DNA of 53,506 bases, taken from IMG/VR virus record IMGVR_UViG_3300040801_002902, positions 1 to 53,506 of that record, one strand, 5' to 3'. Below, piece by piece: positions 2,127-53,506 of this stretch. Under the pieces are notes generated by a model. It was not told the DNA's origin and made no database searches. It saw nothing but the letters and a program-made list of their open reading frames with translations. The translations under genes were made by a program, and so were the position numbers. Positions within the stretch are counted from its first letter, which is position 1. Each line of letters starts with the position of its first letter. The DNA comes from a virus.

Positions 2127-2130
2127 CCAA

Positions 2131-2427
2131 ATGCAACCACCAAGCGATAACTGGAAGCGTATCCGCCGGGCGACTTTGGAGCGCGCGCAACGAACCGCAA
2201 TCGATCCGCTGTCGCCGCTATACAACATATATTCGGGCGCCTGTGCCCTGTATCTCGCGGGCTTTCTTTATTTCAAATTCTTCGACTACGGTACCGATTT
2301 CAGTTGGTTCACAGCATGCCTAATCATCTGTGTTGCCATTGCCGGGGCACTTGTTCCATTGCTGACAGGCTCAGTTGTTACCTTGCATTTCGCGAGCAAG
2401 AGACTGGAGCGTTTGATTGCTGAGTGA
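2131..2427 (+). CDS. Small membrane protein, unknown function
   Basis: A 98-residue protein starting at the ATG 4 bases after the repressor stop (GGGAG lies upstream). It has a basic N terminus, then two hydrophobic segments at about residues 35-50 and 60-85, and a short charged tail. I do not recognise a family. Tight coupling to the repressor suggests co-transcription and a role tied to maintenance or regulation of the element, but nothing more can be said. Confidence 0.6.
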   Translation: MQPPSDNWKRIRRATLERAQRTAIDPLSPLYNIYSGACALYLAGFLYFKFFDYGTDFSWFTACLIICVAIAGALVPLLTGSVVTLHFASKRLERLIAE

Positions 2428-2529
2428 GCAAAGCACAAAGTGCTGTTTCTCAGATCTTCGGAAATGCGGGAAACTACCCATGACGATTAAGACTTGGCTC
2501 CAACTTGTCTGCTCGGGAGGCCAATTCGC

Positions 2530-3429: not shown

Positions 3430-3441
3430 CGGCCCAAACCC

Positions 3442-4629: not shown

Positions 4630-4849
4630 AATCCTACACCATTTTCGAGCTGCTAGCCTTACAAACCTGATTTCCTACTTCGTAGCAGGGGCTGATCAGG
4701 TTGTCAGTCAAACAAGCCATTGAACCAGAATATGTCTCTCAGTTCTTGGTTTCCATTTCAATGCCCTTCAATGCAATGTTTCGGCCAATCCGAACCCCTC
4801 AAGCACCATCTTTGTCGCGGAGGCAAAATCCCAGTTCGATCATCGCCGA

Positions 4850-5012
4850 ACCGTTCTGACGTCAAAGTTTTTTGCAACCGCGGCGACTGACGGCTTCCCA
4901 CCAATGCCAATTTTGCGCCTATGTGAATTACGAGAGCTTACTTCGCGAGAAGCTTGGTGTCTCGATTTTTGCAAGGCTGCTTTACGTTGCAAATTGGTCC
5001 GGATAGAAATTT
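4850..5012 (-). pseudogene. Possible remnant with a helix-turn-helix end (recombinase-like)
   Basis: The 440 bases between the RES gene and the STAND gene hold no intact gene. On the minus strand an open stretch of 54 codons without a good start ends in a segment (KPSVAAVAKNFDVRTVRR) that looks like the C-terminal helix-turn-helix of a resolvase or transposase, preceded by a basic Arg/Ser/Lys-rich stretch. It may be the decayed tail of a recombinase left by an earlier insertion, or chance. Nothing else is evident between 4630 and 5069 apart from the promoter that the downstream gene must have. Confidence 0.25.
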
Positions 5013-5069
5013 GTCATTGATTATAAGTGCGTGCGTTGACGCAGAAGCCACTGAACTGGATTAATTTGC

Positions 5070-8831: not shown

Positions 8832-9035
8832 TCAAAAGAGTGTTTGGATGTTTGCAACCGTCGCACACGACAGAAACGAGGAAACCAGCGCGCGTTACAA
8901 TTGATTATCCCATCTGTCGGGCCTTTCTTTTTTGCTCCGTGGTTGCAGGGATAATTCAGAAGTCGGCGCTGGAGCTTTTGGCCTGCGGTCACAACGTAAT
9001 TTGTTGGTTGGTGTAGTTTGCCGCGCATCCATATA

Positions 9036-9073
9036 TGTATCATATATTGACACATGTATCTTGCTATGATACA
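9036..9073 (+). promoter_or_regulatory. Promoter/operator of higBA
   Basis: An AT-rich stretch directly before higB has the inverted repeat TGTATCATA (9036-9044) and TATGATACA (9065-9073), centred 29 bases apart, plus a partial TGTATC at 9055. A TTGACA hexamer lies between the arms at 9047-9052. This is the expected arrangement for autorepression by HigA or the HigBA complex, with the operator covering the promoter. The -10 box cannot be fixed with confidence. Confidence 0.6.
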
Positions 9074-9081
9074 CACCTTTC

Positions 9082-9363
9082 ATGATCCAAAGCACCAAGG
9101 TCAAACTCGCTGCCAGCGCCTTAAAAGGCAAGTATGGCAAAGGCTTTCCCGGTGACTTGGTGAAGCGCACGCGGGCGATGCTCACGGCGCTGGACGCTGC
9201 GGTTGTTGTGGAGGACTTACGCTTTCCACCTGGCAATCACGTAGAAGAACTGAAAGGCGATCGGGCTGGGCAACATTCTGTGCGGATCAACGCGCAATGG
9301 CGCATTTGCTTTGTCTGGACGCCGAACGGCCCTGCCGATGTTGAGATTGTCGATTACCATTGA
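9082..9363 (+). CDS. higB: HigB-type mRNA interferase toxin
   Basis: A 93-residue RelE/ParE-superfamily protein of the HigB/plasmid-maintenance killer kind. The C-terminal half shows the typical beta strands: LRFPPGNHVEELKGDRAGQHSVRINAQWR, where L-K-G-D and S-V-R-I-N are hallmarks, then I-C-F-V-W. HigB cleaves mRNA on the ribosome. The toxin comes first, followed 12 bases later by the antitoxin, which is the usual reversed higBA order. It lies between two defence-type genes and may stabilise the element or act against phage. Confidence 0.9.
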   Translation: MIQSTKVKLAASALKGKYGKGFPGDLVKRTRAMLTALDAAVVVEDLRFPPGNHVEELKGDRAGQHSVRINAQWRICFVWTPNGPADVEIVDYH

Positions 9364-9375
9364 GAGGATACGCTG

Positions 9376-9666
9376 ATGAGCCTGCTTGAAGAACCAATGC
9401 ACCCTGGCGAAGTCCTAAAAGAGCTTTACCTTGATCCTCTGGACATGGGGGCAATCGCGTTTGCGCGGCGTCTGGGCGTGCCTCGGACGCGGATCGAACG
9501 GTTGATCAAGGGGACCACTGGGATCACGCCTGACACTGCACTGCGGCTCGCGCGCGTTTTCAACACGACCCCAGCCTATTGGGTGAACTTGCAGACGAAT
9601 TTCGATATGGCCGCTGCTGCCAAGGAGATCGACGTGTCTAGCATTGAACCGTTCATCGCTGCTTAG
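9376..9666 (+). CDS. higA: HigA-type XRE antitoxin
   Basis: A 96-residue antitoxin. The start MSLLEEPMHPGEVLKE and the helix-turn-helix region (AFARRLGVPRTRIERLIKG) followed by TPDTALRLARVFNTTPAYWVNLQ are diagnostic of the HigA (VapI) family. It binds and neutralises HigB and represses the operon through the inverted repeat upstream. GAGAGGA precedes the start at a good distance. The 292 bases after it contain no gene and lead to the next transcription unit. Confidence 0.92.
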   Translation: MSLLEEPMHPGEVLKELYLDPLDMGAIAFARRLGVPRTRIERLIKGTTGITPDTALRLARVFNTTPAYWVNLQTNFDMAAAAKEIDVSSIEPFIAA

Positions 9667-9958
9667 CGTGTCAGTTCCCGGTTCATCTCGACCTCACGTG
9701 CTTCTTTCTATCTCTGTCTCAGCCTGTGTTCAAAAGCCTTCCATCATCTAAAACAAACTAGCCGCCAATCCTCGAATCATGCAGTAAACACATCTCATTT
9801 CGGTTTCGCTCCTAAGCTATTGTCCAACAAAAAACGAAGCTTTGAAAAAATAGACTTTGGGGTTACCCTTTCACTAGTTGCGAAATGCCAAGTTTTTTCT
9901 GCAAGCTGTGACTTACAACGACTCGTAGAGGGAGAAGGTATTTTTGGAGGATTCGAAA

Positions 9959-12028
9959 ATGCAGCCGTGGATTGTTGACGCGAAAGACATAACCGACCTT
10001 TCAACCATTTCGCAGTTTGACAAGGGTCTGCTGATTTCTTCACCAGCGATACAATCATTCTTGTCTCCAACTAGTATGGCGACCAACATTGTCTCCGGAC
10101 CAAAGGGGTTTGGCAAAACACTACTGCTAAAGCTGAAGCGTCAATCTTTGGTGGACAGAGGTTACTCCTACATTCCCGAAGACCAATTGGTTGACAAACC
10201 AGTAGGTGTGCCAACGATTCTCTCGAGAAAAACACTTGGTCCCCTTCTGACGTCGACACAGTATTGGAAACAGGTCTGGGAGATCGCGATTTCAGTCGCG
10301 ATTCTGAAGAAAGAAGGCGTGGCAATTCCAACATTCAAATGTGGTGACCTTAAAGATATTTACGCCGATGAACTGCTAACCAGCCCTTGTGATTTATTCG
10401 ATTGTGTTCTTTCTCTTTCGCGCAAGCAGTTTTCCAACGCATTAGAAGATCTAAGGCGCCTCCTCGTGCCAAACCTACGCAAAGTCTCATCTCAGTTTGC
10501 GTTGTTCATCGACAATGTTGACGAATACTTTGAGAGCGCCGCTAGCTACGCAGAATCGGAGAGTTCTCTAGTCACAGGCGATATCCAACTGTGGGTTTTC
10601 GCTCAATGCGGGCTCGTCTCAGCGGCGAGAGAAATCAGCGGGGTAAATAACCACGTTAAGTGTTGGGTGAGCATTAGGTCTGAAGCAATGGAATATTTGC
10701 TAGCTAACGACCCTTTGGCCGCTCAAGTGGGCGGCTCAACAGCATCACTCAGGTACGCAAAAGGTGACCTCGTCGAAATTCTAAAAAAGAATATCTCAAA
10801 TGAAAGTGAAAGCCGCTTGTTTAAGTCAGGTGGAGACGCTTTTGAACGCTTTTTCGGCCCAGAAGCTATGGAAATTGAGAACACTTACGTTGCGGAAAGT
10901 GAAGGGATTGTAGACTATCTTTTGCGGCATACGCTTTCAAGGCCCCGAGATATCGCAATCATTGGCAAAGCAATATCCGATATTCCCCCGAGTAGGCGGA
11001 CAGAGGAGCATGTCTCTCAAACCATAAATGAGAGAGCCACATTTATTGCTCAAACTTATCTTGCTGAATCTCGCGTACACACTCCCGGATTTCACCCCGA
11101 TGTCCTTTTTAGCTTGATCACGTCAAACACGCTTACCCAGAAAGAATTGGTCGATATTTCAAAAGCATACGATGCTTCTTTAGATCAACTCACAGGCGAA
11201 GTGCACGAACGGCACCCTTTCTGCACACTTTATCGACTTGGACTGTTGGGTATTGTTGAAAAGCTGGGAGGCAACCGCGCAGCACATCAACTGTTTCCAT
11301 CACCAGGGGAGGTTGGCTTCCTGACGGAGAACGTACTCCCATCAGCGCCTTTCTACCTTGTGCACCCAGTAATCGTTGGACTTATCGCACGTCGAAACAA
11401 GAACTTCCTCAACAATATTAATCCGCTAAATATTGTTGGAAACGGTCGTCGATGGCACGCAATCAACGATGTTGATTTCGTTTTCAAAGGTGATGTCGTC
11501 GGCTTCAGCAAAATCATGGAGGACCCTGATTTGGCCCCTCGGTTTGCAGCTGCATTTAGCGAGGTTGTTGACAGAGCCAAAGCAAACAATGGTGTGTACG
11601 CTGAGATCAGTGGGGGCGATTCTATATTGCTGCAGGGCAAAGTGCCTGAGAAACTGGTTTCCGCCGTACACGATATTCGTCATGATATGGAGAACAGCCT
11701 ATTCGAGGCCAAGTTCCGCTTTGCAGGAGACGCCGGTCTAATGAGGTTTCGCGATGATGGGAGTGGGCCTCAAATAACCGGTGGCAAGAGTATCCGCGTA
11801 GCTGCCCGCTTGGAACCACGCGTTCGTGAAGACTGGGTCGTGATCACCGACAGATTTCAATATTTTTATGAACAGCAGAAACAATCCCGCTTCAAAAGAC
11901 CGTTCAAAATATCCGAATTGGCCTCGACAGACATACCGGAAGTGCCTTGTCAGGATGGTCAGTTCAATTTGGCTAAGAATGACAGAGAACCAGCAATCTT
12001 GCATCGTCTTTTCCGAATACGCCGATAA
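9959..12028 (+). CDS. P-loop ATPase fused to a class III nucleotide-cyclase-like domain
   Basis: A 689-residue protein; the ATG at 9959 is chosen because GGAGG lies 8 bases upstream, rather than a TTG five codons earlier. The N-terminal half is a P-loop NTPase of KAP/Sll1717/STAND-like character: Walker A GPKGFGKT (47-54), Walker B FIDNVD (D185), then helices with a sensor-like RSEAMEYLL and a winged-helix-like region (TNTLTQKELVDIS). Residues about 502-630 align with class III adenylate/guanylate cyclases: GDVVGFS (metal Asp D512), GGDSILL (second Asp D554), a F-R-F-A-G-D-A-G strand, and SIRVAARLE where the transition-state Asn of V-N-x-A-A-R is Arg613 but Arg617 is kept. Both metal ligands are present; the specificity lysine before the second Asp is not. 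It may be a signalling sensor in phage defence. No effector gene is adjacent. Confidence 0.7.
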   Translation: MQPWIVDAKDITDLSTISQFDKGLLISSPAIQSFLSPTSMATNIVSGPKGFGKTLLLKLKRQSLVDRGYSYIPEDQLVDKPVGVPTILSRKTLGPLLTSTQYWKQVWEIAISVAILKKEGVAIPTFKCGDLKDIYADELLTSPCDLFDCVLSLSRKQFSNALEDLRRLLVPNLRKVSSQFALFIDNVDEYFESAASYAESESSLVTGDIQLWVFAQCGLVSAAREISGVNNHVKCWVSIRSEAMEYLLANDPLAAQVGGSTASLRYAKGDLVEILKKNISNESESRLFKSGGDAFERFFGPEAMEIENTYVAESEGIVDYLLRHTLSRPRDIAIIGKAISDIPPSRRTEEHVSQTINERATFIAQTYLAESRVHTPGFHPDVLFSLITSNTLTQKELVDISKAYDASLDQLTGEVHERHPFCTLYRLGLLGIVEKLGGNRAAHQLFPSPGEVGFLTENVLPSAPFYLVHPVIVGLIARRNKNFLNNINPLNIVGNGRRWHAINDVDFVFKGDVVGFSKIMEDPDLAPRFAAAFSEVVDRAKANNGVYAEISGGDSILLQGKVPEKLVSAVHDIRHDMENSLFEAKFRFAGDAGLMRFRDDGSGPQITGGKSIRVAARLEPRVREDWVVITDRFQYFYEQQKQSRFKRPFKISELASTDIPEVPCQDGQFNLAKNDREPAILHRLFRIRR

Positions 12029-12047
12029 GTGGACCAGCTGTCGCGAC

Positions 12048-13571
12048 CTAATGCGTCAGCCCCCGATCCATCTCGACCTCGCGCTCTTCTAGCTCTGTCT
12101 CAACCTCTCTTCTGCGGCCTTCACTAATTTCAAGCTGGTCTCTAGTTGCGTGCGCAGCCTCCCGTAGTTCGAGCCCTCGCTCAGCAAGCCGTGCAACGCA
12201 GCCACGGACGCCGTTTGCGATTGAATGAGCACCGACACGCAGGCGGCCAATCCATCCATCTGGCTCTGCATCTTGGTCGCCGAGCGTTCCTCTAACCCGC
12301 TCAATTCCTTTGCTGAGACTTCGCAGGCCGTCACCAACCGCTCGACGCAGGCGAGCAAGTCGCGTTCCAAGGCTGTCAGGGGCGTCGTCATCTAATTCTC
12401 CTCGATCTTGATGCAGGTCACTGATCTGTCGCCCAGCGTGCAGGTCCTCAGGCGTGTCTTGGTCGGGTCCAGCACCAGCCATGTCGCGTCCTCCCTGTCG
12501 ATCCGCGTCAGGCCCAGTTCCGTCAGTTCCGAGCTGGACAGCATCTGCGTCCAAAGCAAGCTCGCCGCCATCATCGAGACGATCCCCGCCAAGAATGTCC
12601 CCGTGATCAGCCAGGGCGAGATCGTCAGCCAACTCTTGTTCTGTCGCAGAAAAGTGCGGGTATCGATCTCGATTGTACGCTGCGCGTTGCTCGCAATGCT
12701 GTTCAAATCGGTCCTGAAGCTCTCGAGCTGTGATGCCATCGAGGCGGCGTAGTCCTGCCGGATCGTGTCTAACTCCGCGTTCAGCTTCTCGCTCAGCCGG
12801 GTCGGCTTGCCAGTTTTCATGGAAAATCTCTCCTTTTAAGCGCCAGCGCTCGCCAGTCTCTGGGTCTCGGGCGGTGAGGTAGGCTTTGCCCGCACGCGGG
12901 ATGTCAAAACCCGCATCTGTGAGGGCGTCGAGCATGCTGCCACGGTCAGTGATTAGGCCAATGCTGGCCTGATCCAGAATCCACGCATGCAGCTCATCAC
13001 GACCCTGCGCGCGCGTTGGGGTCTCGATGGTGTCGCGAACCTCTTGGACCCGCTCCAACTCCATCGGATCGGCCCAGCCGTGGCGCTGGTTCATCACATC
13101 GCGCAAGCTGTCGAAGGCGTTCTGATAGCCGGGCGGCGCGATGTTCAGGCTCCGCCCTGAGGTCAGCTCCAAGCGCGGTGTGCAAAAGTGAAGCTCAACG
13201 CGGTCTTCGTGGGTATGTCTGACCCAGAGCACGTCATATTGCGTCGGGTCCAGCCCCGCGAAGGCCAGATGTTCGAAGTGGTCCATGACCTCGGCCTGCT
13301 GCTCCTCGGCCGGGGCGTCGGTGGCGGCAAAGCTGATCACGCCTGCGCGGTAGGTCCACTGATGGCGACTGGCGTCGATCAGAGCCTCGGTGCGGTCGGG
13401 GTTGCCGCGCAGGACCTCGGGCAAGGGTTCGCGCGTGACGGTCATCGGTTGGCCCTCTGCATCGCGGATCAGGTCGCGGTTGTCGTCATAGGCCAGCACC
13501 TTGCCCGCGACGAGGTAGCCCACCGGACCAGCGCCCGCGCCTTTGCCGTTGCGGAAGAACTTGATCAGCAT
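12048..13571 (-). CDS. mobA: Relaxase (ColE1/MbeA-like mobilization protein)
   Basis: A 507-residue relaxase starting at ATG 13571 (MLIKFFRNGKGAG), which overlaps the end of mobC by 7 bases. The N-terminal 250 residues form the DNA-nicking domain; the metal-binding motif is in WVRHTHEDRVELHF, of the form HxHExxxxxH. The C-terminal half is acidic, then coiled-coil (LARLRRAVGD to the end). It would nick the element at oriT and stay bound to the 5' end during transfer. Two complete genes in another frame lie inside its 3' half (12089-12820), exactly as mbeB and mbeD lie within mbeA in ColE1. Confidence 0.85.
   Translation of the reverse strand: MLIKFFRNGKGAGAGPVGYLVAGKVLAYDDNRDLIRDAEGQPMTVTREPLPEVLRGNPDRTEALIDASRHQWTYRAGVISFAATDAPAEEQQAEVMDHFEHLAFAGLDPTQYDVLWVRHTHEDRVELHFCTPRLELTSGRSLNIAPPGYQNAFDSLRDVMNQRHGWADPMELERVQEVRDTIETPTRAQGRDELHAWILDQASIGLITDRGSMLDALTDAGFDIPRAGKAYLTARDPETGERWRLKGEIFHENWQADPAEREAERGVRHDPAGLRRLDGITARELQDRFEQHCEQRAAYNRDRYPHFSATEQELADDLALADHGDILGGDRLDDGGELALDADAVQLGTDGTGPDADRQGGRDMAGAGPDQDTPEDLHAGRQISDLHQDRGELDDDAPDSLGTRLARLRRAVGDGLRSLSKGIERVRGTLGDQDAEPDGWIGRLRVGAHSIANGVRGCVARLAERGLELREAAHATRDQLEISEGRRREVETELEEREVEMDRGLTH
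12089..12391 (-). CDS. MbeD-like small mobilization protein, nested in the relaxase gene
   Basis: A 100-residue, almost wholly helical protein (ALERDLLACVERLVTACEVSAKEL... ending in VKAAEERL). It has its own ribosome binding site (GAGGAG 6 bases before ATG) and starts immediately after the stop of the MbeB-like gene. It is read in a frame different from the surrounding relaxase. In ColE1 the equivalent MbeD is a small coiled-coil protein linked to mobilization and entry exclusion. Resemblance is by size, order and coiled-coil nature. Confidence 0.7.
   Translation of the reverse strand: MTTPLTALERDLLACVERLVTACEVSAKELSGLEERSATKMQSQMDGLAACVSVLIQSQTASVAALHGLLSEGSNYGRLRTQLETSLKLVKAAEERLRQS
12392..12820 (-). 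CDS. MbeB-like membrane mobilization protein, nested in the relaxase gene
   Basis: A 142-residue protein. A strong AAAGGAGA precedes the ATG. Residues 1-60 are a charged coiled coil, residues about 68-92 a membrane helix (WLITGTFLAGIVSMMAASLLW), and the rest a small beta-type domain rich in Thr/Asp with two cysteines. This matches the MbeB/MobB layout, which helps the relaxosome dock with the helper conjugation machine. It is wholly inside the relaxase gene but in another frame. Confidence 0.75.
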   Translation of the reverse strand: MKTGKPTRLSEKLNAELDTIRQDYAASMASQLESFRTDLNSIASNAQRTIEIDTRTFLRQNKSWLTISPWLITGTFLAGIVSMMAASLLWTQMLSSSELTELGLTRIDREDATWLVLDPTKTRLRTCTLGDRSVTCIKIEEN

Positions 13572-14038
13572 CGACGCGCGGCCTCGACGATCTGCGAAAG
13601 TTGGCGCTCGATGGTCAGCAAGCGTCGGGCAACAGTCAGAGCGTCGAGGTCCACACGGCCAGCCAGCATCGCGCGGTTCAGCCATCGCGCGATCTGGTTA
13701 AGGTTGCCGCCGATGCGCCCAACAGCCAGCACCAGCGCCGGATCAACGCGAGGGATGGGCTTGCGACGGCGGGCTTCCGTGAGGCCAAGCGCCTCGCGCA
13801 GCAGGGTCGCAGCGGGCAGACCAGCGGCCTCGGCCTTGGCGCGCAACTGGGCCTTCTCTGCCGCTGTGCACCGAAAGACAAAGGTCTCGGTCAGCGGCTC
13901 TTTGGTGCGGGCATAGCCTGCGCCGGTGGGGTTCGAAGGGGAGGCATGCCGCCCCTCGCAAGGTCCCGTGTCAGAAGCGCCAGCGTATGACATGGGTCGC
14001 CTTGCTATTTGCTCTTCTGTGGGATCGATTGCGGTCAT
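13565..14038 (-). CDS. mobC: Relaxosome accessory protein MobC
   Basis: A 157-residue protein starting at ATG 14038 (MTAIDPTEEQ). Residues 55-155 have the MobC signature: T-F-V-F-R-C-T-A-A-E-K start, an L-R-E-A-L-G helix, a V-G-R-I-G-G-N-L-N-Q-I-A-R-W-L-N motif and a final helix. MobC proteins bind near oriT, open the strands and help the relaxase. The start overlaps the stop of the Rep-like gene (ATGA) and its stop overlaps the relaxase start, so the three genes are translationally coupled. A second ATG at MSYAGASD is possible. Confidence 0.85.
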   Translation of the reverse strand: MTAIDPTEEQIARRPMSYAGASDTGPCEGRHASPSNPTGAGYARTKEPLTETFVFRCTAAEKAQLRAKAEAAGLPAATLLREALGLTEARRRKPIPRVDPALVLAVGRIGGNLNQIARWLNRAMLAGRVDLDALTVARRLLTIERQLSQIVEAARRC

Positions 14039-14889
14039 GATCTGAGGCCTGCAGCTTGGATTTGGGCCTGCGTCACCAGCTTTGAGGCAAGCAATGCAGT
14101 CACTTGCGGAGCCGTGATGTGTTTGCACATCGGGCTGCGATCACTGATCCAGCACGCCAGCCGTGCATGGTGATCGGCCTGTAATGCTGCCGATTTTTCT
14201 CGGTCTTCTGCCTGCTTCTCAACATAGGCCTGCCAGCGCTGCGACTGGAACCAGTTGTCGGAAAAGCAGACCTTGGAACGAGTGAAACCTGCGCTCTCAG
14301 TCGCGTAGGCTTGGACCGCCTGCAACAGTTCCTCCCGTGCGATCCCGTCCGTCATGGCCTCTTCGATCTGGGCAATGCAGGCCGCTTTGCTACGAAGACG
14401 GTCAGGCGGATACGCCGCCAAAATCTTCTCAGCCTCTTCATCCGCCGCTGCCTCGCGCTTGCGCGTAGGTGGTTTATGGATGGTTTTAGGATGGTTTGGG
14501 GGCCGTGGTGGCCCCGGTACCCCGGCCACAGTGGCCCCCGTACCGGGGCCAGACTGGACGGGGGCCACTGTGGACCCCGTCTCAATCTCGGGCTCAAGGG
14601 TAGGGTCCAGCGCCTCAACCTTAGCCAGATCAATCCGGTAGACGACGGTGAAACCGTTCTTGCAGGTCCGCGCGCCGGTCTCGACTAGGATGCCTTCCTT
14701 CAGGAACTCGCGGACGGTTCGCTTGACGGTGGTCTCTCCCAGCTCGGTGTGCCGCTGGATCGTACCCTTGGAACACCAGATACCCGAACCATCGTCGCTC
14801 GCCTTGTCCGCCAAAAACATGATGATCTGCTTGCGCGTCGCGCTGCCGAACTTTCGTTCCGCGCATGTGTTTGCAACCCGCCAGCTCAT
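14035..14889 (-). CDS. Winged-helix Rep-like protein of the mobilization operon
   Basis: A 284-residue protein, start set at ATG 14889 (MSWRVANTCAERKFG). Residues 1-90 are a winged helix-turn-helix (KQIIMFLADKASDDGSGIWCSKGTIQRHTELG then TVKRTVREFLKEGILVETG). A Gly/Pro/Val linker at about 105-135 is encoded by palindromic DNA (see the repeat entry). The C-terminal 150 residues are helical with a basic, Trp-containing segment (FSDNWFQSQRWQAYVEKQ). The layout, wHTH plus repeat-coded linker, resembles plasmid and phage replication initiators, so it may start replication of the excised circle. A longer start at 14955 cannot be excluded. Confidence 0.6.
   Translation of the reverse strand: MSWRVANTCAERKFGSATRKQIIMFLADKASDDGSGIWCSKGTIQRHTELGETTVKRTVREFLKEGILVETGARTCKNGFTVVYRIDLAKVEALDPTLEPEIETGSTVAPVQSGPGTGATVAGVPGPPRPPNHPKTIHKPPTRKREAAADEEAEKILAAYPPDRLRSKAACIAQIEEAMTDGIAREELLQAVQAYATESAGFTRSKVCFSDNWFQSQRWQAYVEKQAEDREKSAALQADHHARLACWISDRSPMCKHITAPQVTALLASKLVTQAQIQAAGLRS
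14498..14578. repeat. Cluster of GC palindromes inside the Rep-like gene
   Basis: Three related palindromes lie close together: GGGGCCGTGGTGGCCCC (about 14499-14515), the perfect GGCCACAGTGGCC (14524-14536) and GGGGCCACTGTGGACCCC (14561-14578), with GGTACC-centred pairs between them. They encode the protein linker T-V-A-P-V/A-T-V-A-G-V. Position and pattern are like origins located within initiator genes; the alternative is simple codon-level repetition of a low-complexity linker. Confidence 0.5.
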
Positions 14890-15044
14890 TGGAGTGCCCC
14901 AAAAGACGCGAAGACGTGCGAATTTTGTACAGGTTTTGTACGAGATTTCTGCCATTCCCGCCGAATTCGATGCGAAAGCTCGCGGGACTTTCCGCAAGCT
15001 TCTGCACAAAGCCCTGTAAATAAGCCATATTTTGTAGGTGTTTT

Positions 15045-15090
15045 TGGTGACCCCGATTGGATTCGAACCAATAACCTGCCCCTTAGGAGG
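15045..15090 (-). repeat. Attachment site: 3' half of tRNA-Arg(CCU), copy B (element 1 / prophage junction)
   Basis: Minus-strand sequence CCTCCTAAGGGGCAGG leads into a T arm with stem ATTGG/CCAAT, the acceptor strand CGGGGTC and ACCA. The T-stem bases differ from copies A and C, so this copy was probably carried in by an element rather than being the original host end. The following bases (TAGCAGCACC) do not form a 5' tRNA half. This is the junction between element 1 and the prophage. Confidence 0.8.
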
Positions 15091-15106
15091 TAGCAGCACC
15101 CCGCGC

Positions 15107-15141
15107 AAAATAAGGGCAAGCTTGCAAAAAGCCTGCCCTTA
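15107..15141 (-). terminator. Terminator of the late operon, inside the left att arm
   Basis: On the minus strand TAAGGGCA (15141-15134) pairs with TGCCCTTA (15118-15111), with an inner GGCTT/AAGC pairing, and is followed by TTTT. It lies at the end of the leftward lysis operon. A second copy with a weakened stem occurs at 53372-53408. Confidence 0.6.
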
Positions 15142-15231
15142 GAACGGCGTTTTTAACGGTTTGTGCAGTGTTTGTTCCTGTTCGCAGGTTCGGTGAACCA
15201 AAGAGCATACCCCATCTGTCCCCGGGGCGGG

Positions 15232-15308
15232 GCCGCGTCGGGACTCGAACCCGAACGACACAAGGTCTCCAGCTTGCGCTGGTGCGTCTACCCATTTCGC
15301 CACGCGGC
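15232..15308 (-). tRNA. Class II tRNA-Leu-like gene with abnormal anticodon arm
   Basis: On the minus strand the acceptor arms GCCGCGT and ACGCGGC pair fully. A D arm of the tRNA-Leu type (GGCGAAATGGGTAGACGC), a long variable region with GAC/GTC pairing, and a T arm CGGG-TTCGAGT-CCCG are all present. The anticodon arm is not normal: CCAG and CTGG flank only six bases (CGCAAG), so the loop is one base short and lacks U33; a CAA anticodon would be the nearest reading. CCA is not encoded. It may be a decayed tRNA, or a tRNA-like structure. The sequence at the right edge of the window (ending 53506) begins a second copy. Confidence 0.5.
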
Positions 15309-15327
15309 CACCGTCACTCCCCGAAGC

Positions 15328-37285: not shown

Positions 37286-37485
37286 GAGCGAGTAAACTTC
37301 ACAAAAGTGGACTTGTGACGCGGCTTACCAGCAGCAGCGGACAGTTCGCCCTGAATGAACTTGATACGCGCCAGCAGGTTTGCGCCAGTGTCGTATTCGG
37401 TTGTCTTGCCGTCATAGGTCACGCGGGTGACGCCGCGGGCATATGCCTGCTGCAATGCGTCAAGCTCGCTCTGCGTGAATGCCAT
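37282..37485 (-). CDS. Head completion protein (gpW-like)
   Basis: A 67-residue protein, start set at ATG 37485 because it overlaps the terminase stop (TGATG). FTQSELDALQQAYARGVTRV then YDGKTTEYDTGANLLARI is the compact alpha-beta fold of gpW, which seals the portal before tail joining. Its place between terminase and portal is the same as in lambda. Confidence 0.85.
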   Translation of the reverse strand: MAFTQSELDALQQAYARGVTRVTYDGKTTEYDTGANLLARIKFIQGELSAAAGKPRHKSTFVKFTRS

Positions 37486-39515
37486 CAAAACCACCTTTTC
37501 TTTTTCGACTTGCCATTGATCCAGTTGCCATCACGGCGTTTGGCTGGCGCTTTCTCTTTTGCCTGGTCGGGCTTTGCCGCAGGCAACGATGCAGGAACCA
37601 CGCTGACTGTGCTGTCAAACAGATCAGCCTGGTCATCGTCAGGCACAGCCGATCGCTGTGCCGTCAGCACGGCCCATTGTTCTTCGGTCATCGATGACCA
37701 GCCTTTGCGGCGTGCTGCCGCTTCGGCGTAGTTCATCGTATCAAGACCCTCGTTGCGGCGACCCGGCTCGGACAGCTCCCACGCACTGGTGACAACGCCC
37801 GAGCGGCTACGCTTAAGCACTCGGACTTCCGACGTGATCTGGCGGAAATACTCATCCCCCAGCCCACGTGCAAAATGCACATAGCCGCGTTCAAGCGGAT
37901 CATCCTTGCCGAGCCATCCGTAGAAGTCAGCCTTCAGCTGGCTGACGTTCAGCATGAACGCCCGCTTTTGGGCCCGCTTGGCGCGCCCGTCCGTCCGGCG
38001 CTCAAACCGCATCGGGGCCAGAACCGGCCCTGACTGTGTCGATGCACCCTTGACCAGAATGACCCGAGACCAGGGATGCCGCTTACCCCATGACCATACG
38101 TCTTCAGTGTACGTGCCAACGTCGACCGCAAGCATATCAAGCGGCAGCTTCAATCCGTTTTCTGTGCGCCATGTCGATTTCAACAGCGCGTCCAGTGCCT
38201 GGCGCCCTTCGTCGTCACCGATGTGATGCGGGATCACCCGATAATCGATGGCCCACCGCTGATAGTTCTGACCGAAGGCTACGATGTGCACCTCGATCCG
38301 GTCCAGCTGACAGTCAACACCAGCCGTCAGGATCACGCCCTTCGCTGGCACAACGCCGACCGGCAGCACATCGCCCTCGGCCGCATTCTCTACGCGGTCA
38401 CGCAACGCTTCCCAATTCGGTCCTGCGCTGGCCTGCTCAAACGGCAGCCCCAACACATCGTTGTAAAACGTCTGTTCCGTTTCCGCTTCGACTTGGCGGG
38501 CAAGGGCCGCTTCTGTCTGCTGCGTCACATGCAGGCCGGTCCATCCCATGACCTGCGCATAGTCCACTGCGATCGATGCCCAGTCACGCTGTGGTGCATA
38601 GGCGCGCCACAGATGAAATCCGGGATGATCACCCCGTGGATTGTGCGCGACCCACCTACCCGCCGCTACGATCTGTTCCTTGTGCGCATGCATGATTGCG
38701 CAACCGCAGCTGTCGCAGGTGAAGTGGGCGGCATGCAGCCGTTCCGGATCGATGCTGCGCCGAAAGTTCTCCCAAGTAAGTGGAGCCTCTTCACCGCAGT
38801 GTGGGCATGGTACGTGATAAAACCGCTGGTCACTTCGGCTGAACGATCGGGTTATGCGGCAGGTTCCGGCAACTAGTGGCGTCGAAACCTTTAAAATCTT
38901 TGCGTCTTCAAAACCCGACGCGCGGCTGGTGGCAAGCGCTTCCGGGTCGCCTTTGTCTGTCTGCTCGAACTTTGACAGGTCATCCATGATGACCAATCGC
39001 CGTGACGTTCCTGTCAGGTCGGCTGGCGATCCTGCGCTTGCGACCTTCAACGAACCGTTGCGCGCCAACGTTTCCTGATTGAACTTCGCGTCCTTGTTAT
39101 CGCCGCCCCCGGTGCCAAATATCGAACGCAGCCCTTCTGCCTGCCTGCGCATTGGCAACCACTTGTTGTCGACCCACTCGGTCGCAGCCGACATGGTCGG
39201 GTGGACGACCAGGCTGTCGAGTGGCACGTGCTCATGCCAGGCACCCAGCACCGGCTGGATGATCGACACTGTCTTGCCCCACTGCGCAGATCCCCTGATC
39301 GTCACTTCCCGACTCGGGTGCTCTGGCGACAGAACCTCATGGATCTCGCGCAAGAACGGAAAGCGCAGAATGCTGAAGGGCCCCGGCATGGGTGAGCGTT
39401 CATCGAAAACAATGTTCTGTTCACACCATCGCGTGATGTCCGGCGGCGGCGGTGGCAGCATCGCGGCCGCAGCTGCCCGACCGACAATGGCAGCAGCTGG
39501 CGCGAGAAAGCCCAT
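37485..39515 (-). CDS. Terminase large subunit (gpA-like)
   Basis: A 676-residue packaging motor. Residues about 45-290 are the ATPase with Walker A GSAQWGKT (75-82) and the acidic region I-M-D-D-L-S-K-F. A CxxC...CxxC pair (CPHCGEE, CDSCGC) follows as a zinc knuckle, and residues 380-600 form the RNase-H-like nuclease that cuts concatemers (V-D-C-Q-L-D, A-V-D-V-G-T). The lambda-gpA type implies cos-style cutting. ATG 39515 overlaps the small-subunit stop. Confidence 0.92.
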   Translation of the reverse strand: MGFLAPAAAIVGRAAAAAMLPPPPPDITRWCEQNIVFDERSPMPGPFSILRFPFLREIHEVLSPEHPSREVTIRGSAQWGKTVSIIQPVLGAWHEHVPLDSLVVHPTMSAATEWVDNKWLPMRRQAEGLRSIFGTGGGDNKDAKFNQETLARNGSLKVASAGSPADLTGTSRRLVIMDDLSKFEQTDKGDPEALATSRASGFEDAKILKVSTPLVAGTCRITRSFSRSDQRFYHVPCPHCGEEAPLTWENFRRSIDPERLHAAHFTCDSCGCAIMHAHKEQIVAAGRWVAHNPRGDHPGFHLWRAYAPQRDWASIAVDYAQVMGWTGLHVTQQTEAALARQVEAETEQTFYNDVLGLPFEQASAGPNWEALRDRVENAAEGDVLPVGVVPAKGVILTAGVDCQLDRIEVHIVAFGQNYQRWAIDYRVIPHHIGDDEGRQALDALLKSTWRTENGLKLPLDMLAVDVGTYTEDVWSWGKRHPWSRVILVKGASTQSGPVLAPMRFERRTDGRAKRAQKRAFMLNVSQLKADFYGWLGKDDPLERGYVHFARGLGDEYFRQITSEVRVLKRSRSGVVTSAWELSEPGRRNEGLDTMNYAEAAARRKGWSSMTEEQWAVLTAQRSAVPDDDQADLFDSTVSVVPASLPAAKPDQAKEKAPAKRRDGNWINGKSKKKRWF

Positions 39516-40153
39516 CAAATGTCCTCGTTCAATTCAGCGGCGGTCTTTGATGCCTCTTGTGCAAACTTTTCCAAAACATCCGCCCGGCCGGATCGATGCG
39601 CGCGCCATGTCTCGGTCAGGAGCTGACGCACCGACTTGTAATCGACGCCCAAGCTGTCCGCGACTTTTCTGGCGCCCTCGCGCAAGACACTGTCAACCTC
39701 GGCGATCTCTTGCGCCATAACCTTGGCCACTTGCCGTTCCACTTCGCTGGCCAGCACGTAGGTGCCTTCAGCTTCGGCATTCTGGCGGCGCAGGCGGCGG
39801 GCTTCTTCCTCGGCCTTTTGCGTGCGCGCCATTTCGTAGCGGTCAGGATCCTTTTGCGGCAACTCCGATGCGCCTGCTGCCGGTTCCTTTGGCGCGGCGG
39901 TTGCCGCTTTGGTATCGCCTTTGCCTGCCTGAACCGCATCAAGGGCGCGCCTGGTCTCTGCGCCGTTCCCTAGCATCTGGCCGCGATCAAGTTTGCGGCC
40001 CAGTGCTTCCACGCATTTCCCTAGGTCGAACCGGCGAGCGCGGCCTGTCCCTGAATAGCATCCATCCAGCTTGCCCTCGGCCACATACTGGCTGACCCGT
40101 CCGGGTGTGACCTGCAGTTTCTGAGCAAGTGTTGATGCGTTGATCTGGGTCAT
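39515..40153 (-). CDS. Terminase small subunit (Nu1-like)
   Basis: A 212-residue protein. Residues 1-50 form a winged helix (NASTLAQKLQVTPGRVSQYVAEGKL) of the Nu1/DUF1441 type that binds the cos region. A charged Ala/Lys linker and a long coiled coil (RYEMARTQKAEEEARRLRRQ) lead to a C-terminal part that binds the large subunit. It is the first gene of the late operon, 156 bases downstream of a tRNA-Met-like gene. Confidence 0.75.
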   Translation of the reverse strand: MTQINASTLAQKLQVTPGRVSQYVAEGKLDGCYSGTGRARRFDLGKCVEALGRKLDRGQMLGNGAETRRALDAVQAGKGDTKAATAAPKEPAAGASELPQKDPDRYEMARTQKAEEEARRLRRQNAEAEGTYVLASEVERQVAKVMAQEIAEVDSVLREGARKVADSLGVDYKSVRQLLTETWRAHRSGRADVLEKFAQEASKTAAELNEDI

Positions 40154-40308
40154 GGTCCTCTTTAGGGCAGGTGCTTGTTTAGCCCTTTCAGGTTTAGGCT
40201 TTCATTTAGGTTTAGGGATGCGAAACACGCGCGCTTAGCCGCCCCGTATACAATCAGGCCCCAGGAGGACCCAAAGTGGGGGGGATGGTGCGTCCCTAAC
40301 CGGTGATC

Positions 40309-40385
40309 TGGTTGCGCGGGCCGGATTTGAACCGACGATCTTCGGGATATGACCCCGACGGGATAGACCTCTTCCCCACCGCGAC
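40309..40385 (-). tRNA. Initiator-like tRNA-Met(CAU) carried by the prophage
   Basis: A 77-base cloverleaf on the minus strand with encoded ACCA. Arms: acceptor GTCGCGG/CCGCGCA, D stem GGGA/TCCC, anticodon stem TCGGG/CCCGA with loop GUCAUAU (anticodon CAU), T stem GTCGG/CCGGC with TTCAAAT. Positions 1-72 (G-A) and 2-71 (U-C) do not pair, and the anticodon stem has three G-C pairs (29-31 with 39-41). These two traits define initiator tRNAs. The G32 and U38 of the loop are unusual. It lies in the leader between the putative late promoter and the terminase gene. Confidence 0.8.
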
Positions 40386-40455
40386 ATGAATGCTGGTCTA
40401 TCCCAGCAGTCATGGGCTATCAGGCCAACCCCATGTCAGGCCCATCAATAGGAAA

Positions 40456-40483
40456 CGCCCGCAGCGGTGGTGACCGGCGGGCG
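40456..40483 (-). terminator. Terminator-like hairpin in the late leader
   Basis: CGCCCGC (40456-40462) and GCGGGCG (40477-40483) form a perfect 7-bp stem with a 14-base loop; on the minus strand TTTCC follows. It lies just downstream of the promoter-like sequence at 40503-40543, as the early terminator tR' does behind the lambda late promoter. The T run is short, so its strength is doubtful. Confidence 0.4.
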
Positions 40484-40502
40484 CAACTGTAGATGATGAC
40501 AA

Positions 40503-40549: not shown

Positions 40550-41251
40550 CTAATCACGGTAACCCTGCATCCGGTCGAGTGCGTCGCAAAGCGCGCGCCT
40601 TGTTTCCTTGACCCGCGTGGTTTTTGGACGCCACCCAAACTTCTGTAACAATTGCCCGATCGTCAGGCCTTGGACACAGACGCCATGCACCAAGTTGGAC
40701 GCGCGAACGATCTTGCCGGCTGGATCTGCATTGGCTTGCGAACGACGTGGAGAAAGCACTACCGCCGCCCCCACTAAGTGATTCAGTTCAGCTAGCCTGG
40801 CCAGGTCGAAGCTGACAGCTTCGCTATATGAGCCTTGTCCGCCACCGCCACCCAACGCCTCAAGTGAGGAACAACGTACACCAGCAGCGGCGCATCTTTC
40901 ATAGAGGGCGGCATATTCTCTGCCGACGTTGACCTGTCCTACCGTGAACAACGGCGCGGCATCCTTACCCCCGCGACCACGGGCCTTTTGCTGCATGACA
41001 TCGAACGCATCGGCGCGCGCCAAAGCATCGTGGCCATTGTGACCATCCCGCCTCACGCGCAACTGACCACTCGCACCGCGCACAACAGCGCGCGGCTGGA
41101 ACCGGCGCACCGCACCACGACCAGGTGCAACGTCCACGATCTCAGACCCACAGCCTTCAGGGCGCGCGGCATCCGCTTTCATTCGAGCAATGCGTTCCGC
41201 CTCTTGCTGAAGCCTGCTGCGTGCTGCCGATGTGTCGCGTTTTGCCGCCAT
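40550..41251 (-). CDS. Possible late-gene regulator (Q position), family not recognised
   Basis: A 233-residue basic protein. The N-terminal 30 residues are a charged helix (RSRLQQEAERIARMKADAAR), the middle has Arg-rich beta strands and a Gly run (LGGGGGQGSYSE), and the end shows a helix-turn-helix-like part (LTIGQLLQKFGWRPKTTRVKETRRALCDALDRM). I know no named family. Its position after the replication genes and directly before the late promoter and terminase is that of lambda gene Q, so an antitermination or activator role is a reasonable guess only. Confidence 0.45.
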   Translation of the reverse strand: MAAKRDTSAARSRLQQEAERIARMKADAARPEGCGSEIVDVAPGRGAVRRFQPRAVVRGASGQLRVRRDGHNGHDALARADAFDVMQQKARGRGGKDAAPLFTVGQVNVGREYAALYERCAAAGVRCSSLEALGGGGGQGSYSEAVSFDLARLAELNHLVGAAVVLSPRRSQANADPAGKIVRASNLVHGVCVQGLTIGQLLQKFGWRPKTTRVKETRRALCDALDRMQGYRD

Positions 41252-41919
41252 CAGATTGCACCTCCAGAACTGGATGTCGCATGATCCGCAAAGCCGCGGC
41301 GCGCCCGCTCTTCACGCATCAGGTCAGTCGCAACTGCCAGCTGCTTGCCATACCAATCTTCGAAAGCCAGATCATCGGCGTCAACAGCAACGCCTCTTTC
41401 ACGCCGCTCCGAAATGATCTGCAGCCGCCGCTTGTTCTCTGCGGCGCGCGAGACTACGGCCTGCCGCGCGGTATCGCTGACCGGGGGCATTTTGCGGCTG
41501 ATGATAAACTGCATCGTTTCCACCAAAGTGCCCTCTTTCTCAGCTTTCGGCCCCTCGATCGACCCAAACCAGCTAGCTAAGCCCGGCAGATCACGCAACG
41601 GACGCCGCTGGACAATCTCTGCAAACCCCAGAAAGGTCGCGCGGTCGGGCCAGAAGTTGCGCGATGAACCTTCACCCTTGGTCCGCAGAATATCGCAGAC
41701 TGCGGCAAGACTGTCGTCGCTCAGATACGCCAATTCGTCCGCAATGCGATTAAGCGTGGACTTGGCAACTTCAGGATCCGTGCCCCGTGGAAAACGAAAG
41801 CCGAGCCGATCAAACAGCTTCACTCGAATGCGGTCCCGATTGCTCTGGGTGACAGACCCGTCTCCAGTTTCTGGAGTCGGCTTTGCTTCTATTCGTGATT
41901 TTTTGACGTCCTGATCCAT
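41251..41919 (-). CDS. Replication-module protein, unknown family
   Basis: A 222-residue, mainly helical protein directly after the initiator-like gene with a one-base overlap. Segments GFRFPRGTDPEVAKSTLNRIAD, LRTKGEGSSRNFWPDRATFLGFAEIV and a basic C-terminal coil suggest a DNA- or helicase-interacting protein; position recalls lambda P, the helicase loader, but no motif proves it. Its first 15 codons contain one more copy of the repeat found inside the initiator gene (41858-41880). Confidence 0.5.
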   Translation of the reverse strand: MDQDVKKSRIEAKPTPETGDGSVTQSNRDRIRVKLFDRLGFRFPRGTDPEVAKSTLNRIADELAYLSDDSLAAVCDILRTKGEGSSRNFWPDRATFLGFAEIVQRRPLRDLPGLASWFGSIEGPKAEKEGTLVETMQFIISRKMPPVSDTARQAVVSRAAENKRRLQIISERRERGVAVDADDLAFEDWYGKQLAVATDLMREERARRGFADHATSSSGGAI

Positions 41920-42593
41920 CAGCTGATTACCCCCGCTGCTCGAAGTTGCTCTGGCTTCACCAAATCCATTCTCAGCATCCGCTGGGCCATCGTCGAAGAA
42001 ATCGCGGTGGTTGGAATGCGTTTCCCAGCTGCAATCTGCTCGGCCCAGAATTGGGCTGTCAGGTCAGCTTTCTTTTCCGAAAAACCATCATCGGTTGATG
42101 GCGGCTTTTTTTTGAAATCCGGTTTTTCAGATGAACGCGACTTGGTTCTTTTTTGGTTACTTACAGGTTCCTCTCCAGTGGGCTGGAGACGGGTTGCCCC
42201 CGAAATTGGAGACGGGTCGCCCTCTAAATTGGAGACGGCTCCGTCTCCAGTTTTTGGAGTCGGGTCAGGGGTGTTTCCGTCTCCAGATTTTGGAGACGGA
42301 TCGGGCGCTTCAGCCATCTCGAACGCAAGAATATACCGGGTCGGCTTCTGGCGCTTTGACACGCCGTCACGCGTCCTGTGGCGACGGATCAACCCCTTGG
42401 CTTCCAGTGCGTTCAGGGCGTTGTTGACAGTGCCATTTGAAGCACCTGTCTTATCCATGAGATAAGCTTGCGTCGGAAAGCAACCGCGCGCCGCATTGTG
42501 GCAGTCACAGAGGTGAAACAGCACGCGAAACTCGCTCGCACCCACCTGCGACGCCTCAAGCTCTGACAGCCAGTTTGTTGCTTTATGGCTCAT
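41919..42593 (-). CDS. Winged-helix replication initiator-like protein
   Basis: A 224-residue protein with the lambda-O-like plan. Residues 1-90 are a winged helix (FRVLFHLCDCHNAARGCFPTQ, NGTVNNALNALEAKGLIRRHR). Residues about 95-145 are a low-complexity linker with T/S-G-D-G repeats, coded by the repeat array at 42173-42300. Residues 150-224 are basic, then helical (FWAEQIAAGKRIPTTAI, AQRMLRMDLVKPEQLRAAG). It would bind the repeats in its own gene and load the host helicase, with the next gene as possible partner. Confidence 0.65.
   Translation of the reverse strand: MSHKATNWLSELEASQVGASEFRVLFHLCDCHNAARGCFPTQAYLMDKTGASNGTVNNALNALEAKGLIRRHRTRDGVSKRQKPTRYILAFEMAEAPDPSPKSGDGNTPDPTPKTGDGAVSNLEGDPSPISGATRLQPTGEEPVSNQKRTKSRSSEKPDFKKKPPSTDDGFSEKKADLTAQFWAEQIAAGKRIPTTAISSTMAQRMLRMDLVKPEQLRAAGVIS
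42173..42300. repeat. Iteron-like repeats inside the initiator gene (putative phage origin)
   Basis: The motif TTGGAGACGG and its complement CCGTCTCCAA/G recur: TCTCCAGTGGGCTGGAGA at 42173-42190, ATTGGAGACGGG at about 42205, ATTGGAGACGGCTCCGTCTCC at 42229-42248 (GGAGACGG-ct-CCGTCTCC is perfect), a TCTCCAG...TTGGAGTCGG pair at 42241-42264 and CCGTCTCCAG...TGGAGACGG at 42277-42299. Another copy is at 41858-41880 in the next gene. Iterons within an initiator gene define the lambda-type origin; no AT-rich unwinding tract is plain here. Confidence 0.6.
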
Positions 42594-52103: not shown

Positions 52104-52387
52104 CCCAGCCACGCCCTTTCACTGCCGAAGCCTTGGCCGAACGCTGGGAATGCTCTGCGGAAACTGTCCGGCAGATGATCCGCGACGGCCGCTTGCCAGC
52201 CTTCCGTGTCGGGCGCATGATGCGGGTCACTCATGAAGTGGTGGAGCAATACGAATGCGGGACTATAGAATCGGACGCCTCAAGGGGCGCTTCGTCGTCA
52301 TGTGGAACGAACCAGACGGCGCGCGGCGACGTTATCGCCTTGCGGCTGACACGCCCAAGGAAGCGGAACGCGAAGCCCGCGACCTGA
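52100..52387 (+). CDS. xis: Excisionase (MerR/Xis-type HTH)
   Basis: A 95-residue protein. Residues 5-55 are a winged helix of the excisionase class (FTAEALAERWECSAETVRQMIRDGRLPAFRVGRMMRV, then V-V-E-Q-Y-E-C). The basic tail is read through the start of int, overlapping by 133 bases. Together with integrase it would direct excision. Confidence 0.75.
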   Translation: MTQPRPFTAEALAERWECSAETVRQMIRDGRLPAFRVGRMMRVTHEVVEQYECGTIESDASRGASSSCGTNQTARGDVIALRLTRPRKRNAKPAT

Positions 52388-53247
52388 TCCTGCAGATCGA
52401 TGCGCCCCGATCGGGGATGACGATCGCGCAGATATGGGATGCTTACCAGACAGAGATGGGCGAACGGCGGCAGGCGGCAAAGCTGGCACAGACAGGCCGC
52501 AACGTTCTGCCCGAGCTGGGCCACCTGACCGCCGAGAACATCACAGCCGATGATTGCCGCACCTACGCAGACAAGCGCCGCAAGGCAGACCGCATGGACG
52601 GCACCATCCGCACCGAACTGGGGTGCCTGCGGTCCGCCCTGATCTGGGGTCAGAAGAGCAAACTGATCCGGACCGCCCCGACGATCGTCATGCCACCCGC
52701 ACCGCCACCCCGTGAACGCTACCTGACCAGGGCAGAGGTCGCTGCACTGATCGATGCTGCCGTTGAACCACACATCCGGCTGGCGCTGCTGCTGATGCTG
52801 ACAACAGCAGGCCGGTCCGGCGCGCTGTTCGATCTGACATGGAACCGCGTGGATCTCGACCGCCGGGTGATCAAGCTGTCAAAAAGCGACATCGGCCCGC
52901 GCAAGGGCAGGGCAACAGTCCCGATCAACGACACGCTCCTGGTCGCGCTGCAGTCAGCACAGCGTGCCGCCCTGTCCGACTATGTGATTGAATGGGGCGG
53001 GCGTCGGGTGTCATCGATCAAGACCGGCTTCAAGGCTGCGGTCGCGCGTGCCGGCATCGAGCACTGCACCCCGCACGATCTACGCCGCACAGCTGGCCGC
53101 TTCATGGCCGAGGCAGGGATCCCGATCGAAGAGATTGCCCAGTATCTCGGCCATACAAACCCGAATATCACCCGCGCAACCTACAGCCAGTTCTCGCCAT
53201 CCTACCTGCGCAAAGCAGCTGATGCGCTGGAGTTGTCAGGCCGTTAG
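52255..53247 (+). CDS. int: Tyrosine recombinase (phage integrase)
   Basis: A 330-residue integrase with all catalytic residues: Arg187 in TTAGRSGAL, His274-x-x-Arg277 in PHDLRRT, His300 in YLGHTN and Tyr310 in RATYSQF. The N-terminal 60 residues bind arm sites and residues 60-150 the core. It recombines attP with the tRNA-Arg site; its stop lies 63 bases from the tRNA fragment C. It is the last gene of the rightward operon controlled by the two-site operator. Confidence 0.93.
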   Translation: MRDYRIGRLKGRFVVMWNEPDGARRRYRLAADTPKEAEREARDLILQIDAPRSGMTIAQIWDAYQTEMGERRQAAKLAQTGRNVLPELGHLTAENITADDCRTYADKRRKADRMDGTIRTELGCLRSALIWGQKSKLIRTAPTIVMPPAPPPRERYLTRAEVAALIDAAVEPHIRLALLLMLTTAGRSGALFDLTWNRVDLDRRVIKLSKSDIGPRKGRATVPINDTLLVALQSAQRAALSDYVIEWGGRRVSSIKTGFKAAVARAGIEHCTPHDLRRTAGRFMAEAGIPIEEIAQYLGHTNPNITRATYSQFSPSYLRKAADALELSGR

Positions 53248-53310
53248 GTTCAACGAACCAAAGAGAAAACCCTTGAAAAAATCCAAGTCATTGTTTTGAA
53301 AAGATTGTAT

Positions 53311-53356
53311 TGGTGACCCCGGCAGGATTCGAACCTGCAACCTGCCCCTTAGGAGG
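53311..53356 (-). repeat. Attachment site: 3' half of tRNA-Arg(CCU), copy C
   Basis: The sequence is the same as copy A (181-226) over the whole 46-base fragment, including the GCAGG/CCTGC T stem. It follows the prophage integrase and forms the right junction. No 5' tRNA half follows; instead TAGCAGCACC, the same sequence that follows copy B, begins. Confidence 0.85.
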
Positions 53357-53506
53357 TAGCAGCACCCCGCGCAAAATAAGGGAAAACTTGCAAGAAGCCT
53401 GCCCTTAGAATGGCGTTTATCGTGGTTTGTGCAGCGTTTGTTCCTGTTCACAGGTTCGGTGAACCAAAGAGCATACCCCATTTGCCCCCGGGGCGGGGCC
53501 GCGTCG
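53357..53506. repeat. Second copy of the prophage left arm (start of a third element)
   Basis: These 150 bases match 15091-15240 with about 12 differences (near 92 percent identity) and stop, at the window edge, just inside the T arm of the tRNA-Leu-like gene. Because the copies differ, this is not a circle closing on itself. The likely explanation is another, related prophage or remnant lying next in the array. Confidence 0.75.

Follow-up and report, generated by a model that had tools for sequence, protein, structure and literature searches.

Lone tRNA-Met/fMet(CAU) genes have already been listed in the phiLM21-like prophages of Sinorhizobium, in an account that remarks on neither an acceptor-stem signature nor the placement of the gene (PMC12429752), and tRNA-Met genes are also present in Rhizobium phages RR1-A and RHph_TM3_3_3. 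The published annotation of phiLM21 and RHph_TM3_3_3 gives the order NusG-like antiterminator, tRNA-Met, terminase. Phage tRNAs considered to escape host nucleases differ from the host copy, are mostly elongators, belong to large virulent phages and carry their changes in the loop (PMC10264068, PMC11555353). A comparable late leader is that of pR' in lambdoid phages, in which a regulator gene, a terminator-like hairpin and the first late gene follow one another and to which a lambda cos belongs.

The gene analysed here lies in a prophage within the window, by which the whole stretch of 53,506 nucleotides, an IMG/VR record, is meant throughout. Its tRNA shares with phiLM21 a GUC/GCA acceptor signature (5'-G1U2C3 with G70C71A72), the phiLM21 tRNA being 100% identical to a 77-nt query from L084, and the position of the phiLM21 gene between a NusG-like antiterminator and terminase genes is one found in the window's tRNA family; phiLM21 nevertheless represents another phage lineage with another terminase, and has an HNH gene between antiterminator and tRNA. 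In the phiLM21 record (L429:4501-4577), the tRNA-Met is annotated opposite to the strand of the matching sequence, which is probably an annotation slip. The tRNA-Met of RHph_TM3_3_3 is of the same type, as is that of RR1-A, which has the full signature but whose neighbours are a DNA methylase gene and unknown genes; within 6 kb of it no terminase was recognised. Like the nuclease-escape tRNAs, the window tRNA is changed against the host copy, but it is a single initiator changed in the acceptor stem. An account of the acceptor signature or of a fixed late-operon position was not found in the open-access literature searched. A sequence-only reading had called phage initiator tRNAs rarely reported, which is true of annotation only: 252 phage records, usually labelled tRNA-Met, match the window tRNA type, and the phiLM21-like cases were already on record. 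The features of the locus, in the order of transcription and with the evidence for each, are as follows.

41919 to 42593, minus strand: replication initiation O-like protein, upstream of the tRNA and transcribed in the same direction (phrog_270, E 1e-18)
40550 to 41251, minus strand: gene just upstream of the tRNA, family g233, candidate late regulator (position; weak fold matches)
40455 to 40484, minus strand: GC-rich hairpin with a weak T-rich tail, terminator-like, between the upstream gene and the tRNA (-19.8 kcal/mol)
40386, minus strand: U(-1), candidate pair with A72 if U2 is bulged and possible true tRNA 5' end (T at -1 in the family; fold energy)
40309 to 40385, minus strand: initiator-type tRNA-Met(CAU), CCA encoded (ARAGORN; Rfam RF00005; family covariance model)
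40238 to 40272, minus strand: predicted lambda-type cos core (cosQ-like GGGTCCT at 40266-40272; cosN-like GTATACGGGGCGGC at 40238-40251)
40187 to 40216, minus strand: two 12-nt direct repeats (CCTAAACCTRAA), possible terminase-binding (cosB-like) sites
39515 to 40153, minus strand: small terminase subunit, Nu1-type (phrog_57, E 3e-17)
37485 to 39518, minus strand: large terminase subunit, lambda gpA-type (phrog_15, E 5e-177)

ARAGORN placed a tRNA-Met(CAU) at exactly 40309-40385 on the minus strand, the Rfam tRNA model scored 44.2 bits (cut-off 29) and the family covariance model, whose training set includes the window sequence, scored 89.6 bits. The tRNA reads GUCGCGG UG GGGA AGAGGUCUA UCCC G UCGGG GUCAUAU CCCGA AGAUC GUCGG UUCAAAU CCGGC CCGCGCA ACCA, with the CAU anticodon in a cloverleaf ending in CCA. 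Position 1-72 lacks a strong Watson-Crick pair (G1.A72, or a weak U-1:A72 if U2 is bulged), 2-71 is U.C, and the D stem has a purine 11 opposite a pyrimidine 24 (G11-C24). The anticodon stem (29-31/39-41) is GGG/CCC, so that all three initiator G-C pairs are present, and positions 32/38 of the loop are G/U. The initiator signs first noticed, namely the unpaired 1-72 and the three G-C pairs, are thus in the sequence as described, and so are the letters that had been called odd (G32, U38 and the 2-71 mismatch). The gene is genuine and initiator-type. The minimum free energy of the lone tRNA against shuffles was uninformative (z -1.05). A search for an exact copy of the tRNA sequence elsewhere gave no match, and relatives were therefore sought through the terminase and with degenerate patterns.

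For comparison with host tRNAs, Rhodobacteraceae carrying related prophages served as stand-in hosts, which may differ from the host of the window. Their three CAU tRNAs are an initiator (CGCGGGA...), an elongator Met (GGCGGAG...) and an Ile2 (GGGCCTG...), to which the phage tRNA is 72%, 60% and 56% identical, respectively, indicating that it is of the initiator type. An elongator tRNA-Met was ruled out, as the paired 1-72, the pyrimidine 11 opposite a purine 24 and the missing G-C triplet expected of one are not found, and tRNA-Ile2(CAU) was ruled out likewise, its acceptor and D arm being unlike those of the window tRNA; a better match to either, which had been named as grounds for giving up the initiator assignment, did not emerge, and fMet is the nearest host CAU tRNA. 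With the chromosomal fMet of Rhodobacteraceae the window tRNA has in common the CAU anticodon, the lack of a strong 1-72 pair, purine 11 with pyrimidine 24, G30-C40, G31-C39 and the A72A73CCA end. It differs in its 5' end, which is GUC (G1.A72 with U2.C71, or a bulged U) instead of CGC, in G32/U38, in its genomic place and in having G29-C41 where the initiators of the two Rhodobacteraceae hosts checked have A29-U41 (anticodon stem AGG/CCU). Judged by its letters, the phage anticodon stem is more canonical than that of the stand-in host initiators.

Relatives of the large terminase carry tRNA-Met genes at the same place, and these likewise begin with 5'-GUC and end in GCA-ACCA. Scanning viral contigs with a pattern returned 102 stretches, and the scans together with phage and genome loci yielded 80 distinct true phage or prophage tRNAs with the full signature, which define a predicted phage tRNA family of at least 80 members sharing the acceptor-stem defect. 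A second scan that left the anticodon free found CAU in 73/73 true tRNAs, two further matches not being tRNAs. When 5'-GUC was fixed and positions 70-72 were left free in a third scan, these were GCA in 71 of 81 tRNAs, GCC in 8, GCT in 1 and GTA in 1, and the pairing GAC occurred in none of the 81. Across 31 aligned members, stems were paired in 98.9% of cells, two-sided changes numbered 110 against 28 in shuffles, and covariation was seen in the acceptor, D, anticodon and T stems. Pair C3:G70 is invariant in the family and 11-24 is A-U or G-C in 78/80 members, while the full GGG/CCC anticodon stem is found in only three of the 80, the window included. Of the letters regarded as odd, the 2-71 mismatch proves to be an invariant hallmark of the family and no noise, whereas G32/U38 is indeed peculiar, being private to the window tRNA; 66/80 members have the ordinary C32/A38 and 11 relatives have U32/C38.

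Of 296 Rhodobacteraceae genomes, 5 had the signature, and no other case came from 240 genomes drawn from the class Alphaproteobacteria, a rarity showing that it does not belong to an ordinary chromosomal initiator, and it was absent from the chromosomal initiators of the two hosts checked. The family spans phages of Rhodobacteraceae and of rhizobia, and suggests that many Alphaproteobacteria phages bring their own translation-start tRNA. Among the 104 matches listed for other phage initiator-like tRNAs, 1-72 was C.A in 33, U.A in 21, U.U in 12, A.A in 11, C.U in 9 and other combinations in the rest, and G2-C71 was paired nearly always, again among the matches listed. Many viral contigs (L289 to about L404) have initiator-like CAU tRNAs with unusual 1-72 combinations (U.U, A.A, C.U, A.C) among the matches listed, several of which, within the same matches, sit directly upstream of an HNH gene and a terminase. 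In the tRNA-Met of Mesorhizobium phage Cp1R7A-A1 (L003:5990-6067), an apparent bulged base on the 3' side of the acceptor stem seems to be an independent instance of such a bulge among initiator-like phage tRNAs.

The acceptor stem can be read in two ways. A T precedes G1 in 64/71 family members, compared with 81/154 other phage initiator-like tRNAs among the matches listed, and pairing U-1:A72, G1:C71 and C3:G70 with U2 bulged gives a seven-pair acceptor stem, which the energy model favours by 1.5 kcal/mol. The double mismatch at 1-72 and 2-71 may therefore be a single bulged U in an otherwise paired stem. Formylation is aided by disruption of 1-72, by G2:C71, by C3:G70 and by A11:U24 (PMC7949028); in the bulged reading, and only there, the window tRNA would have G2:C71, which would leave the known formylation determinants in place, while a U2.C71 mismatch, if real, should weaken formylation. 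Another possible reading of the T/A-rich consensus upstream of the gene is an RNase P leader. Under both readings the acceptor end is disturbed, which is the primary mark of an initiator.

Downstream of the tRNA and on its strand lie the Nu1-type small terminase and the gpA-type large terminase, followed by the portal gene. The placement in the leader of the late operon, as first proposed, is borne out by these same-strand terminases and is conserved in relatives: a large terminase gene was found within 3 kb downstream on the same strand at 31 of the 52 family loci whose downstream sequence reaches 3 kb or more, and upstream at none. Four terminase sets accompany the family, three of them confirmed by PHROG (gpA, phrog_15; phrog_9; phrog_2/3717) and the fourth assigned from its sequence. 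The upstream neighbour belongs to one of three unrelated families, namely a NusG-like antiterminator (phrog_25909, PF02357) in the rhizobial group, g233 or phrog_9306. The g233 gene of the window gave no match in Pfam or PHROG and no homologue in the PDB, and its weak structural matches are to DUF6456 and to sigma-region-like viral proteins; its position and these matches make it a candidate late regulator. The similarity of phrog_9306 to the Q21 antiterminator is weak and non-significant (E 1.3). In the window's terminase lineage, the unrelated g233 and phrog_9306 (L048:4224-4958) alternate just upstream of cos and the small terminase, with or without the tRNA. The tRNA itself is present at 7/56 small-terminase loci of close relatives, and a covariance search of 64 relative loci found no decayed copies. 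Its absence from most close relatives marks it as an accessory gene that is not needed for the lytic cycle as such.

A hairpin of -10 kcal/mol or stronger occurs within 140 nt upstream of the tRNA in 38/77 family members, compared with 15% of shuffles, and in the Rhodobacteraceae group the tRNA is immediately preceded by a strong GC-rich hairpin with T after it. No sigma-70 promoter-like site was found in the leader of the window tRNA. A leader switch acting through the D arm (10-nt perfect complement, 40395-40404 with 40360-40369) was rejected, since the complement is not conserved in relatives (mean longest 6.4, against 6.2 in shuffles). On the other side of the tRNA, cosQ and cosN motifs upstream of the Nu1-type small terminase predict a lambda-type cos. 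Local alignment of the window to the lambda cos junction was better than that of 500/500 shuffles. Packaged DNA is predicted to have its right end at about 40245, which leaves 64 bp between that end and the tRNA 3' end. The arrangement GGGTCCT...GTATACGGG upstream of the small terminase is kept in 34/56 relatives, and cos is conserved both with and without the tRNA. The role of the 12-nt repeats as cosB-like sites is a possibility suggested by their position. The order of candidate regulator gene, terminator-like hairpin and first late gene and the lambda-like cos resemble the lambdoid late leader with its Q antiterminator, from which the window differs in that its g233 regulator candidate has no sequence homology to Q and that no lysis genes lie between regulator and cos.

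The reading that we favour, with a probability of roughly 0.6, is that of a working phage initiator tRNA, produced along with the late genes, which would add to or replace the host initiator. The tRNA would be the first product of the late (packaging) transcript, lying behind the terminator-like hairpin and just ahead of cos. A late antiterminator or activator would overcome the hairpin, the tRNA would be co-made with the terminase and virion genes, and RNase P and 3' processing enzymes would cut it out of the transcript. Host MetRS would charge it through the CAU anticodon, and the disturbed acceptor end would keep it from elongation and open to formylation. The benefit would lie in extra fMet-tRNA at the peak of late translation, or in a substitute when the host initiator is depleted. 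More speculative, and put forward tentatively, is that these tRNAs form a dedicated initiator class of Alphaproteobacteria temperate phages with a bulged or doubly mismatched acceptor stem, which might behave unlike the host initiator in late phage translation, either by resisting a host defence aimed at tRNAs or by being handled differently by formyltransferase, IF2 or peptidyl-tRNA hydrolase. If so, their unbulged ancestor would be found among the other phage initiator-like tRNAs with varied 1-72 pairs. How fast and how accurately translation starts depends on initiator tRNA, which toxins are known to target. An initiator tRNA that recurs in phages, with its stem anomaly invariant and its late-operon place fixed, would make phage control of initiation itself testable, as well as the question of why exactly tRNA-Met is the tRNA of some single-tRNA phages; in databases, many such genes bear just the label tRNA-Met and pass unnoticed.

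The main rival is counter-defence, in which a tRNA-targeting toxin (VapC-type, GNAT-type or other) would cleave or modify the host initiator and the phage tRNA would replace it, being itself a poor target through its altered acceptor stem, anticodon stem-loop or both. We consider this possible, though clearly short of probable. VapCs that cut tRNA-fMet occur in Alphaproteobacteria; one from Bosea cleaves initiator tRNA, and in E. coli growth is restored in part by additional initiator tRNA (PMC8522696). Changes in the anticodon loop have been proposed to let phage tRNAs escape VapC-type nucleases (PMC10264068), and both G32/U38 of the window and U32/C38 of the 11 relatives depart from the host C32/A38. 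However, the host-like loop letters are retained in 66/80 members, for which reason escape from anticodon cleavage through loop changes cannot explain the family and was rejected as its purpose; if defence is involved, the cause possibly lies in the acceptor stem. Even there, the part of the acceptor stem that AtaT mainly reads, its lower G-C pairs, is kept in the family, no toxin partner was identified, and Shigella phages avoid encoding tRNA-fMet (PMC10264068).

That the gene might be a passenger (moron) or relic, a host initiator copy caught by transduction or recombination beside cos and kept without selection, is suggested by its patchy presence and its similarity to host fMet, and the region beside cos is a common site of accessory DNA. 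We nevertheless think this improbable, given the deep divergence with compensatory changes in all stems, the invariant derived signature that the two hosts checked do not have, the lack of decayed remnants at the 64 relative loci and the occurrence of the family in both Rhodobacteraceae and rhizobial phages. Slightly less credit still is given to the idea that the tRNA fold serves structure or processing in the late leader or the cos region (as a transcript-start mark, an RNase P cleavage site or an insulator of cos) and does not act in translation. The fixed position of the tRNA between a terminator-like hairpin and cos or terminase in unrelated packaging modules, and the short distance to the predicted DNA end, would fit such a use, but CAU, CCA and the initiator-specific 11-24 are kept although structure needs none of them, and a CAU found in every true tRNA of a scan that did not demand it favours decoding over a purely structural role. 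Moreover, the same cos lacks the tRNA in most relatives, and in phiLM21 and RHph_TM3_3_3 the tRNA is well away from the small terminase.

Tandem elements were recognised from three copies of the 3' part of tRNA-Arg(CCU) (177-226, 15036-15240 and 53307-53506), which mark an island of about 15 kb (integrase 242-1336) and a prophage of about 38 kb (integrase 52255-53247). The outer repeat of the prophage (15044-15240 and 53310-53506) is 91% identical over 197 bp. In known cases, integration destroys a host tRNA and a tRNA of the phage repairs or replaces it (PMC10865867), and such tRNA-dependent lysogeny, or a remnant of an attachment site, could in principle account for a phage tRNA-Met. For the window prophage, an attachment-site origin is refuted by these direct repeats, which lie over the 3' part of tRNA-Arg(CCU) beside the integrase, an isotype other than Met and about 13 kb away from the tRNA-Met, and phiLM21-like prophages likewise have no isotype match (PMC12429752); we regard this explanation as extremely improbable.

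A tRNA with leucine-like sequence and an irregular anticodon reading (15229-15309) adjoins the att repeat, and the right end of the window contains its 3' end a second time. The two tandem elements have one O-like replication initiation gene each (14035-15108 and 41919-42593). Within 1704-13685, the left island contains a PD-Lambda-4 defence protein (5070-8831, E 7e-283), of which the gene at 9944-12028 may be the partner, in addition to an HNH endonuclease, a RES-domain protein (3442-4629), an HTH protein and a weak relaxase match.
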